Shown here: positions 13,242 through 16,797 of the stretch, in pieces
Position numbering within the stretch: position 1 is the first letter of the stretch
How the letters are laid out: the number at the start of each line of letters is the position of its first letter
IMG/VR virus record: IMGVR_UViG_3300044627_003295
Span: 1 to 38,529 of that record
Strand: one strand, 5' to 3'
Source of the DNA: a virus
DNA length: 38,529 bases
Made by a program: the position numbers and the translations under genes
The notes under the pieces: generated by a model
What the model saw: only the letters and a program-made list of their open reading frames with translations
What the model was told of the DNA's origin: nothing
Database searches by the model: none

Positions 13242-13580
13242 ATGACTGACGAGATGGAGAGGTACGTGTCGCTGGCTCACGGCGTGGCAGCACACGCGAC
13301 GGCCGGGACGCTGGAGCCGGACACCGCCATGCGGTTCTGCCGGGCGATCCTGCCGTCGATCTTGGTGGAGTTGGACATCGCACGGCGGGTCGAGGCGAGG
13401 CTGGAGCAGATGTTCCCGGCCACCGCCGCCGTCGTCGCCGCGCCGCCAGCGCCCTGCGAGGCCACTGTGTGCAGCAGCCGTTGGGAGGGCATGTCTGCGA
13501 AGAAGGCCAAGCGGGCCATCAAGAAGGCGGCCAAGAAGTCTCGCCGCAAGAAGGGAGGGTGCGATGACCTGCCTTCGTGA
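13242..13580 (+). CDS. Small hypothetical protein with basic C-terminal tail
   Basis: 112 aa. ATG at 13242 is chosen because CGGAGG precedes it. An upstream in-frame start would add a Pro/Arg-rich segment with no ribosome site. The N-terminal 60 residues are helical (MTDEMERYVSLAHGVAAHATAG, then MRFCRAILPSILVELDIARRVEARLEQMF). The tail is Lys/Arg-rich (KKAKRAIKKAAKKSRRKKGG), suggesting nucleic-acid contact. It overlaps the helicase start by 17 nt and sits in the recombination operon. No family is recognised. Confidence 0.7.
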   Translation: MTDEMERYVSLAHGVAAHATAGTLEPDTAMRFCRAILPSILVELDIARRVEARLEQMFPATAAVVAAPPAPCEATVCSSRWEGMSAKKAKRAIKKAAKKSRRKKGGCDDLPS

Positions 13581-15090
13581 CTACCAGCGTCGGGCCGTCG
13601 AGCAGGTGTGTCTGGCTGCGAAGCGTGGCCAGAAGCGGGTCGTTGTCTGCCAGCCGGTTGGCAGCGGCAAGACGGAGGTGCAGGCCGAATTGTGCCGCAT
13701 CGCCCGCTACCCAGTGAACGTGGTGCCGCTGGTGGACTTGATGCGGCAGAACCGCGACCGGATGGAACTGCGGCTGGGCGAGAAGGTGGACATTGAGCAG
13801 GGGGCAAACTTTGCCGAGTCCATCGAGGGGCTGCGGCGGCGGGTCATCGTCGCCAGCCGCGACTCGTTGCTGTCCCGCAGCCGCTTCAAGGCGAAAGCCT
13901 ACGAGCGGACGACGCTGGTGATTGTGGACGAGTGCCACGTGGGCATCACGCCTCGCATGGAGGAGATGCTCAAGTGGTACGAGGATCGAGGGGCGACCAT
14001 CGTCGGGTTCAGTGCCACGCCCTACAAGGGCAAGGGCAAGGCTCTGCGGTACTGGCCACGCCCGCAGGTCGTGTACTCGCTCTGGGACGCCATTCACGAC
14101 GGCTGGCTGGTGAGCCCGACGTGCCACCTGTCTGAGGCCAAGAGTTTCGACCTGACGATGGTCGAGGACGAGGCCGGCGAGTGGGACAAGGGGCAACTGG
14201 AAGCGGTCCTCACGGCCGAGCATTTCGCTCAGGAGGTGACGAGCCTCGTCCTGTCCACGTATCGCCGCAAGCCCAGCGTGGTGTACGCCTGCAACCGCCG
14301 GCAGGCCGAACTGTTCGTGCAGATTTTTGAGCGGTACGGCGTCCGGGTCAGCCTCGTCCACTGCAAGCAGAACCCGCTGGTCCGCAAGGAGAACATGGAT
14401 GCGTTCACGTCCAACGAGACGCAGATCATCGTGAACGTGGGCATCTTGGGCTACGGCTGGGACATGCCAACGCTGGAAAATGTCTACATGGCGGCGCCGA
14501 CACGGTCGCTCTCGCGGTACGAGCAACGTCTCGGACGCGGCACACGCTGCCTGCCGGGCATCCTGCACCCGGAGATGAGCCGGGACGAGCGTCTGGCCGC
14601 CATCGCTGCCTCCGCGAAGCCCACGTTCCATATCTACGACATTACCGACTCGTCGCGGAACCACCAGTTGCTCAACGCACTACAGGTCTTGGACGCCAAA
14701 TGCCGGCGTTCTGCGGCACGGCGTGCCCGCATGGCCGATTTGGCGGCACAGGGCGGCATAGACGCGACTGAAGCGGTAAGGCAGGCAGACCAACTCGACC
14801 TTGAGGAGTTGCAGGCCAAGACGCGGGAGATCATGGAGAAGCGGAAGCGGCTCGTTGTGGGCGTGACGTTCGACCATGCGACCCGTGACCTGTTCTCCGA
14901 GCCGGAGGAGGGCAAGAAGCGTCGTGGGTGGAGGATGCTGTACGGAAAGTACAAGGGCGAGCATCTGTCCGCCGTCCCGCAGGGCTATCTAGAGTGGGTG
15001 CTGGGCAGTCAAAAAAAGGCTACCCCTTTCACGGCGGCCGTTCGATCCGAACTGGCCCGGAGAAAGGAGGCTCCCAATGCCCAGCGCTAG
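13564..15090 (+). CDS. SF2 DEAD/DEAH-type helicase
   Basis: 508 aa. It starts with a Q-motif-like LRDYQRRAV. Walker A is PVGSGKT at residues 31-37, motif II is DECH at 122-125, motif III is SATP at 150-153, and motif VI is QRLGRGTR at 321-328. The C-terminal 110 residues end with GKYKGEHLSAVPQGYLEWVL, a small module common at the ends of phage helicases and nucleases. It should unwind or remodel DNA during phage replication or recombination. Near the 3' end, A AAA AAG at 15012-15018 sits in the zero frame like a -1 frameshift site, followed 17 nt later by a strong hairpin. Confidence 0.88.
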   Translation: MTCLRDYQRRAVEQVCLAAKRGQKRVVVCQPVGSGKTEVQAELCRIARYPVNVVPLVDLMRQNRDRMELRLGEKVDIEQGANFAESIEGLRRRVIVASRDSLLSRSRFKAKAYERTTLVIVDECHVGITPRMEEMLKWYEDRGATIVGFSATPYKGKGKALRYWPRPQVVYSLWDAIHDGWLVSPTCHLSEAKSFDLTMVEDEAGEWDKGQLEAVLTAEHFAQEVTSLVLSTYRRKPSVVYACNRRQAELFVQIFERYGVRVSLVHCKQNPLVRKENMDAFTSNETQIIVNVGILGYGWDMPTLENVYMAAPTRSLSRYEQRLGRGTRCLPGILHPEMSRDERLAAIAASAKPTFHIYDITDSSRNHQLLNALQVLDAKCRRSAARRARMADLAAQGGIDATEAVRQADQLDLEELQAKTREIMEKRKRLVVGVTFDHATRDLFSEPEEGKKRRGWRMLYGKYKGEHLSAVPQGYLEWVLGSQKKATPFTAAVRSELARRKEAPNAQR

Positions 15091-15099
15091 GAGGACTGC

Positions 15100-15498
15100 G
15101 TGCCGGAAGACCGCGTCAGCCCAAGAGCGACAGGCCAGATCGGCGTGGCGAGGGCGGTCGAGCAGTTTCTACTGGCCGGCTTCTGCGTGGCTGTGCCGAT
15201 GCTGGACGAGGGCTACGACCTTCTCGTCGGAGCCGGCGGCCTATGGTGGCGAGTGCAGGTCAAGACTACGTCTTCGTCCGCAGGTGGTCGTCGTCGCAAC
15301 CGCATTGACATCAGCCGTTCGCGTGGGTCGCTGTACACCACAGAAATCGTGGACGCCATCGTGGCTGTCCACCTGCGGACGGGCGTCAGCATGTGCGTGC
15401 CGATGGCGGTCGCGGCTGGCAGGCGATACCTGAATTGGTCTTCTGCTAAGCAGTGGTCGGACTTCGGAAAACTCAGGAGCATCAAGACACACAAGTAG
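15100..15498 (+). CDS. PD-(D/E)XK-like endonuclease
   Basis: 132 aa with GTG start and AGGAGG at 15089-15094, overlapping the helicase stop. The core GYDLLVGAGGLWWRVQVKTT gives an Asp and a QVK element spaced as in PDDEXK nucleases of the resolvase-like group. Upstream, GQIGVARAVEQFLLAGFCVAVPM supplies the first helix. The C-terminus is YLNWSSAKQWSDF. It probably cuts branched or foreign DNA. The exact substrate cannot be read. It lies in the recombination operon with three other nuclease-like genes, just before a long non-coding stretch. Confidence 0.6.
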   Translation: MPEDRVSPRATGQIGVARAVEQFLLAGFCVAVPMLDEGYDLLVGAGGLWWRVQVKTTSSSAGGRRRNRIDISRSRGSLYTTEIVDAIVAVHLRTGVSMCVPMAVAAGRRYLNWSSAKQWSDFGKLRSIKTHK

Positions 15499-15856
15499 GA
15501 CGGTGACAATACGAACGGCTGCGTGGGTTGGGAGAACCTACGGCACGCAGACGCATGGCTCGCTACCGGAAGGGATTGTGGTGACAGCGAGTAGGCCAGC
15601 CGCAAGCGACAGGGCCAAACCACACGGGCAGCAGGATGCTCGATAAGCAGGTCGCATGCCTCCACCCCTGCGGTACGGAGGCCACCCGGAAGCGTCCTAA
15701 CGAGCAGCGGACAGGGTGGCGGCTAACTCCAGCATCACGCTGGGGATTAGTCGCCGTCCACCCATTGCGAGCCTTCAAGCAACAGACAGGGATGGTTAGT
15801 GCAGGTGGTTGGGCGCATAGATGGGCCCGAGTTCAGGAACCTGAAAGGAGTCATAC
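15499..15856 (+). ncRNA. Non-coding gap with strong predicted RNA folds (candidate structured RNA)
   Basis: A 358-nt gap in an otherwise packed operon. Helices found by eye: CTGCGTG 15519-15525 with CACGCAG 15544-15550, enclosing GGTT/AACC (15526-15529/15535-15538); CTCGCT 15559-15564 with AGCGAG 15586-15591; GCCTCC 15658-15663 with GGAGGC 15677-15682; and a long hairpin in which GCGGCTAA 15719-15726 pairs TTAGTCGC 15747-15754 and CTCCAGC pairs GCTGGGG around loop ATCAC. No ORF here has a ribosome site or a plausible protein. I could not match it to tmRNA, RNase P, 6S, a group I intron core or a tRNA. It may be a cis leader of the next gene or an independent RNA. Confidence 0.45.
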
Positions 15857-16102
15857 ATGAACGGTTTTCTCGGTCGGTCGCTGGCGAGGCTTCTCAAGGA
15901 CGGCGAGGAACTGGCCGCTCCGGCGAGGGCGATTGGCGAACTGGCGTATGCCCGTCCTGCGACTGGAGAAGACGCGACCAACGTGGTCACTGGCCGGCGT
16001 GCGTTCCGGTATCAGATCGAGTTCGACAGCCTTGCCGACCTGACCATGTTTGCCGACAGCGTGCGGGAACTGGTGGACGCCGTGACCGGAGAGCGGAGGT
16101 GA
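15857..16102 (+). CDS. Small hypothetical protein
   Basis: 81 aa, ATG at 15857 with AAAGGAG about 6 nt upstream. N-terminal half: MNGFLGRSLARLLKDGEELAAPARAIGELAY. C-terminal half: a short RYQIEFDSLADLTMFADSVRELVDAV helix. No known domain. It is the first gene after the structured non-coding stretch, so its translation could be controlled by that RNA. Its stop overlaps the GTG of the HNH gene. Confidence 0.65.
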   Translation: MNGFLGRSLARLLKDGEELAAPARAIGELAYARPATGEDATNVVTGRRAFRYQIEFDSLADLTMFADSVRELVDAVTGERR

Positions 16103-16797
16103 GCGATGCCAAGACGCCGCTGGCTGACTTCGCTGCTGAGTTCCCGTTCTGTGCCGTGTGTTGGAACCGGGACACGCTGCACATCCACCACCTGCAACAG
16201 GGCGCAGCGAGGGTGCATGACCGGAGGAACCTGCTCCGGCTGTGCCGCTACTGCCATGAGGGGCTGCACTTCGGCGGCAAGGACGACCTCACGAAAGGGA
16301 TGCTGCTCACGGCCAAGCGAGAAGTTGACGACGCCTACTACGACCCGTCGTTCTTGGCTTCGCTTCGGCACAAGCAGCATCTCGGCTACGACCCGCAGCG
16401 TTATCCGGTACGTGTCTTCGTGTTTCGCAGGCGGAACGGAATCCCACAGGAGTTAGCCCGCATGGCCATCAACAGCAGGAACAAGGGGAAGAAGGGCGAG
16501 TTGGAGGCGGCGGCCGAATGGAATCGGCTCGTCCCCAAAGCCCATGCCCGGCGGAGCCAGCAGCACAGCGGCACGGAGTCGTCCAGCGACCTCATCAGTC
16601 CGGGCACTCCGCATCTCTGGCTGGAGGTGAAGCGGGTGCAGGCGTTGAACCTGACGGCCGTCATGGAAACGTCCCGCGAACAGTGCGGCGAACTGTGCCC
16701 GGTGGTGCTGCACCGCAAGAACGACAGCGAGTGGCTGGTGACGTTCCCGTTGGAGGACATCAAGCGGTTCGTGCAACAAGTGCAGGGAGGCATGTAA
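16099..16797 (+). CDS. HNH endonuclease joined in frame to a Holliday-junction-resolvase-like PDDEXK domain
   Basis: 232 aa from GTG at 16099 (GTGA overlap). Residues 15-60 form a zinc HNH motif: C18xxC21, H30-H31, N44, C49xxC52 and H57. From residue 122 a second domain starts with MAINSRNKGKKGELEAAAEW, then HARRSQQHSGTESSSDLI and HLWLEVKRVQALN, the E..D..ExK pattern of phage resolvase-like nucleases, usually a free-standing protein of about 110 aa. An ATG at 16462 with AGGAG at 16448-16452 could make that domain alone. So this is either a true fusion or two genes lacking an intervening stop. Likely role: DNA processing in recombination or packaging. Confidence 0.75.
   Translation: MSDAKTPLADFAAEFPFCAVCWNRDTLHIHHLQQGAARVHDRRNLLRLCRYCHEGLHFGGKDDLTKGMLLTAKREVDDAYYDPSFLASLRHKQHLGYDPQRYPVRVFVFRRRNGIPQELARMAINSRNKGKKGELEAAAEWNRLVPKAHARRSQQHSGTESSSDLISPGTPHLWLEVKRVQALNLTAVMETSREQCGELCPVVLHRKNDSEWLVTFPLEDIKRFVQQVQGGM

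Follow-up and report, generated by a model that had tools for sequence, protein, structure and literature searches.

What occupies a gap of several hundred nucleotides inside the recombination operon of a phage? The window analysed here, a virus record of 38,529 bases from an uncultivated phage (IMG/VR IMGVR_UViG_3300044627_003295), contains a recombination operon gene set comprising an ExoVIII-like nuclease, an Erf-type annealing protein, a helicase, a PDDEXK_5 nuclease and an HNH + RusA-like nuclease. Between the stop codon of the PDDEXK gene (15498) and the ATG of a small gene (15857) lies a gap (15499-15856) of exactly 358 nt, the length given by a first-pass annotation. That annotation had also placed a candidate structured non-coding RNA at 15505-15850. 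An RNA of lake phages, termed type A, was found there, with a conserved block narrower than proposed. The block and its neighbouring genes are as follows.

13564-15090, + strand, helicase (ResIII / Helicase_C), upstream gene; Pfam and PHROG matches
15100-15498, + strand, PDDEXK_5 nuclease, upstream gene; PF11645, E 3.5e-7
15509-15793, + strand, type A RNA, conserved block of ~285 nt; nhmmer, 67 loci, 27 distinct sequences
15857-16102, + strand, small gene of 81 aa, downstream; kept in most relatives
16099-16797, + strand, HNH + RusA-like nuclease, downstream gene; PHROG RusA-like E 6.6e-11, HNH 3.3e-4

The stop codon of the small gene overlaps the start of the HNH-RusA nuclease gene in the window, as in a translationally coupled operon. 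Neither a sigma-70 promoter nor an intrinsic terminator was found between 15000 and 16200, which is compatible with processing of the RNA from the operon transcript. A tRNA/tmRNA search of the gap found none, and no sequence match to a solved structure was found for the PDDEXK and HNH-RusA proteins.

Extent and distribution of the type A RNA

Relatives were collected by searching IMG/VR with the HNH-RusA protein, yielding 62 loci. A profile of the gap matched the ~285-nt block in 29 of these, three of them cut by contig ends. Pattern searches brought the total to 67 loci with 27 distinct sequences, all from uncultivated phages, some of the loci being overlapping pieces of the same contigs. Conservation spanned 15509-15793, not the entire gap. 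In many relatives the block was ~83% identical at the DNA level and the flanking DNA mostly ~58-67%.

Type A is known solely from this operon slot and is always codirectional with the genes. In loci with enough flank it lies upstream of the small gene(s) and the nuclease; in the window ~64 nt separate its end from the small gene. Some RNA-bearing relatives, L047, L050 and L051, lacked the PDDEXK gene at the upstream position. In L047 and L050, both without the upstream PDDEXK gene, an HNH gene of ~205 aa was seen directly 3' of the type A RNA. Most relatives also have a small conserved protein beginning MAKDLVLL between the RNA and the small gene (e.g. L040:4456-4722), which is absent from the window.

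Among genome contigs, two pattern matches were obtained (L084, L085), neither of which the family profile recovered at E 1e-3, and a looser pattern scan gave no new member by that profile among the matches listed. No cultured phage had a DNA match covering more than 4% of the type A region used as query. In the searches made, no close cultured relative of the phages carrying type A was found.

A protein-coding reading of the gap, centred on an ORF of 74 aa (15636-15860), was rejected on account of frameshifting indels and stop codons in the relatives. Stops occurred in nearly all homologues in all six frames, and no frame was open across the family.

A conserved ten-helix fold

Folding of the single sequence departed only slightly from that of shuffled versions (z = -1.80; 6 of 100 folded equally well), so that stability alone would prove nothing and the relatives were decisive. 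The comparative fold, based on 23 distinct homologues, comprised 10 helices and 62 pairs, with 97.5% of cells paired. Double-sided (compensatory) changes were present at 25 pairs, in 78 cells. Shuffled controls (n = 500) averaged 91.1% paired, 9.6 compensated pairs and 16.8 cells, and none of the 500 equalled the observed values. Slid controls had 37-40% of cells paired and 2-7 compensated pairs; the structure was picked on the same 23 sequences and is favoured over its slid versions for that reason, while the double-sided changes are, in kind, unaffected by how it was chosen. A chance structure was rejected, as the comparative fold beat both sets of controls. The following elements were recognised.

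15519-15550, + strand, helix P1 (15519-15525/15544-15550; CUGCGUG/CACGCAG, 7 bp); compensatory change at 4 of 7 pairs
15559-15591, + strand, helix P2 (15559-15563/15587-15591); 2 of 5 pairs compensated, 99.1% paired
15577-15624, + strand, pseudoknot PK1 (15577-15582/15619-15624); 5 of 6 pairs compensated, 100% paired
15606-15655, + strand, helix P3 (15606-15610/15651-15655); 100% paired
15625-15642, + strand, hairpin P4 (15625-15629/15638-15642); 100% paired, one pair with a double-sided change
15631-15671, + strand, kissing-loop KL between the P4 loop (15631-15635) and the P5 loop (15667-15671); 3 of 5 pairs compensated, 96.5% paired
15658-15682, + strand, hairpin P5 (15658-15663/15677-15682); double-sided change at 4 of 6 pairs, 87% paired
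15694-15712, + strand, hairpin P6 (15694-15697/15709-15712), containing part of repeat R1; 100% paired, mostly invariant
15715-15762, + strand, long bulged terminal hairpin P7; ~98% paired, 4 pairs with double-sided changes

In P3 the GCGAC/GUCGC pairing was swapped for GAGUC/GACUC in L036 and L044. PK1 crosses both P2 and P3, making the fold compact. Four helices had been picked out from the single sequence in the first-pass annotation. The 7-bp closing stem at 15519-15550 corresponds to P1 and the 6-bp stem at 15658-15682 to P5, each with its full length and with compensatory changes. For the 6-bp stem at 15559-15591, five pairs were supported in the relatives; the sixth forms in the window and is not conserved. 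The bulged hairpin placed at 15719-15754 exists and is longer, extending over 15715-15762. PK1 and the kissing loop, both with compensatory changes, are additional to these four.

With compensation above the shuffled and slid controls and no conserved reading frame, the comparative sequence evidence indicates that 15509-15793 encodes a genuine non-coding RNA with a conserved compact fold of ten helices, including a pseudoknot and a loop-loop pairing, and supports strong selection on it. The structured non-coding RNA originally proposed is thereby borne out: it survives the covariation check in relatives (25 compensated pairs against a shuffled mean of 9.6) and the check for a coding frame in homologues, where none was conserved, and it has no match in Rfam (see below).

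Comparison with known RNA families

The Rfam 15 covariance models gave no match in the window at the gathering threshold, in agreement with the earlier impression that the RNA fits no common family. No known family was recognised with E up to 10 either; the best sub-threshold match was to RAGATH-32, at 14.6 bits against a cut-off of 41.8. Eight relatives likewise gave no match to Rfam 15. By these comparisons, type A is a well-supported RNA family absent from Rfam.

GOLLD and ROOL are described in PMC12286853 as long, ornate non-coding RNAs of bacteria, phages and environmental DNA whose function is not known, and type A is similarly a long, ornate phage-associated non-coding RNA. It differs from them in having no covariance-model match. 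GOLLD and ROOL are larger than the ~285 nt of type A, and we know of no slot exchange with a second RNA class, nor of co-varying direct repeats, as features of either.

With group I introns and HEARO / omega RNAs, type A shares a pseudoknotted core near nuclease genes, and its internal sequence matching the flank (see below) recalls a guide. It differs in that no model matched, no IscB/TnpB was among the neighbours examined and it is intergenic. The group I intron model found nothing between 15300 and 16000 at E up to 10, and in the window the RNA lies between complete genes, not within an interrupted one. For HEARO / omega RNAs there was no Rfam match, and the neighbours encode PDDEXK_5 and HNH-RusA proteins, not IscB/TnpB.

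Exchange with a second RNA, type B

Sister phages with the same flanking genes and without type A carry another structured RNA of 250-270 nt, termed type B (L033:4170-4441, L018:4188-4441, L096, L099, L103, L292, L319 and others). Its consensus reads CCGGGCAACGGGC-hairpin-(variable 7 nt)-ACGUCCCGG...GGGA-(complement of the 7 nt). The type B members tested had no match in Rfam. Type B resembles type A in occupying the same slot, in its similar size and in being pseudoknotted, but has no sequence or model similarity to it. That A and B form one family was rejected on this lack of similarity, which extended to a doubled-sequence circular-permutation test. A model of the B core (a CCGGG/CCCGG core with hairpin, built from 29 B sequences) found nothing better than E 2.1 in 15400-15900, even with filters off.

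Swaps between A and B were counted on trees of the flanking proteins, which were quick trees, the helicase tree having several long branches. The HNH-RusA tree required 11 swaps, at least 6 of them forced by well-supported branches, and the helicase tree 12, with at least 12 so forced. L050 (type A) and L051 (type B) were the clearest pair: their flanks are 96% and 98% identical and the difference is confined to the cassette between, which in L050 additionally contains the 205-aa HNH gene. Comparison of L148 with L117 shows the RNA exchanged and the PDDEXK gene retained. That unrelated structured RNAs substitute for each other at one locus suggests a function common to them and open to testing.

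The short type B pattern had at least 120 matches in the viral collection, many of them by chance. There were 55 distinct cores with the pattern among the fetched phage loci, and in 30 the 6-7 nt before ACG(U/C)CCCGG were complementary to those after the downstream GGGA-like motif, compared with 8% when the tail was shuffled. No gene recurred in the B neighbourhoods; the contexts were unrelated and on either strand. Type B appears far more widespread than type A. A set of 790 bacterial genomes from two phyla lacked the pattern, and cultured phages had no DNA match to type B in the searches made. Literature searches for the B core returned unrelated papers only, and broader ones found no such RNA in open-access titles or abstracts.

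Co-varying repeats within type A

Two copies of a ~12-nt direct repeat were identified, the second lying at the 3' limit of conservation.

15704-15716, + strand, repeat R1 (GCAGCGGACAGGG), ~12-nt copy; co-varies with R2 as a direct repeat
15779-15791, + strand, repeat R2 (GCAACAGACAGGG), ~12-nt copy at the 3' edge of the block; co-varies with R1

At offset 0 the base may be G, A, C or U, and none of the 23 sequences differed between R1 and R2 there (mutual information 1.74 bits). The copies also agreed in 23 of 23 at offsets +4 and +7. At offsets +3, +5 and +6, R1 always has G and R2 has G or A; over offsets -1 to +8, R1 G against R2 A is the sole difference, never the reverse. On a tree built without the repeat columns, offsets 0, +4 and +7 needed at least 5, 2 and 3 changes, respectively, each matched in the other copy, giving at least 10 parallel changes in total. 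The spacing between the copies was 74-76 nt in 22 of the 23 sequences despite indels. No other pair of stretches within type A showed such co-change.

An intramolecular partner for R1 and R2 was rejected, as no column had a complementary pattern. The flanks searched held no consistent site complementary to them, and there was no third copy in the window. With no complement to both inside the RNA or in the flanks searched, R1 and R2 would be matched to an external factor or else to the antisense strand at R2. A partner that varies in trans, a bound protein or a role akin to a guide would all be consistent with this. Wobble base pairing could account for the one-way G/A pattern; alternatively, pairing of R1 inside P6 could fix its G residues. 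The signal is unusual in lying outside standard explanations by RNA structure, and points to a partner or guide role.

Possible function of the type A RNA

The first-pass annotation had offered a leader, a decoy and a stand-alone phage RNA. These are inseparable by sequence alone; exchange with type B favours a stand-alone RNA over a leader. Type B stands alone among unrelated genes and the two RNAs are exchanged as a unit, which argues for a role in trans. We infer, with a probability of about 45%, that type A is a phage RNA which stands alone and acts in trans, either directed at the host or serving counter-defence. As a discrete RNA, transcribed with the operon or from it, it would not work on the mRNA containing it. 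It would target some component of the host, most likely one involved in defence or takeover. Different RNA folds could do the same job, and the allele-like exchange of entire RNAs would follow from that; R1 and R2 would both be sites for a single variable partner. Against this, the strong sequence conservation of type A is contrary to a simple arms-race expectation, its restriction to this operon, codirectional with the genes, is compatible with a role in cis, and the stand-alone nature of type B is no proof for type A.

As a leader acting in cis, the RNA would form the 5' portion of the transcript that carries the small gene(s) and the HNH-RusA nuclease gene, and would control the expression of these genes. 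The ~64 nt to the small gene in the window, the codirectional upstream position wherever flank suffices and the coupled-looking small gene/nuclease overlap all suit such a leader, but the next gene varies (the MAKDLVLL gene is missing in the window and an HNH gene follows instead in L047/L050), the exchange partner B occurs in unrelated contexts and a terminator-like hairpin was not found, and we consider a leader unlikely. Also doubtful is a mobile ribozyme-like element, resembling an intron or homing under RNA guidance, whose nuclease would be encoded by the PDDEXK_5 or HNH gene and in which R1 would serve as an internal guide to R2 in the 3' flank. R1 and R2 do co-vary like guide and target, including the one-way G/A difference, but the G bias in R1 may alternatively be due to pairing within P6, and the window has no further R1/R2 copy. 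Whole cassettes are exchanged, yet type A is found in one slot only and no intron or HEARO model in Rfam matched. The group I intron enzyme I-Ssp6803I belongs to Pfam family PDDEXK_5, and an HNH gene follows the RNA in L047 and L050; the PDDEXK gene, however, is absent in some loci and stays in the A/B exchange of L148 and L117.

A more specific guide can also be envisaged, in which R1 (~12 nt) would retain complementarity, G-U wobble included, to the antisense strand of R2. Working with a phage nuclease or resolvase, the RNA would then recognise the border of its own gene, in homing or in the control of replication, and an unrelated RNA with a similar function would be its competitor for the slot. 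The sequence patterns make this conceivable, and we hold it to be quite improbable. The near-constant spacing of R1 and R2 despite indels would suit a DNA element, a replication origin or recombination site with the repeats as protein-binding sites about seven helical turns apart, but compensatory changes, G-U pairs, a pseudoknot and a kissing loop are marks of an RNA fold, and such an element is highly improbable.

Other features of the slot

A third arrangement was seen in the slot at L024:3749-4000, in which the first ~100 nt are B-like and the rest is different; an extra gene resembling the C-terminus of the helicase lies 3' of it. A CGAGCCU..A.ACA-like stretch is present in both A and B, near the 3' end of type A (15770-15780 in the window) and near the 5' end of type B (near 4228 in L033). 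It may be due to chance or may be a common docking motif.
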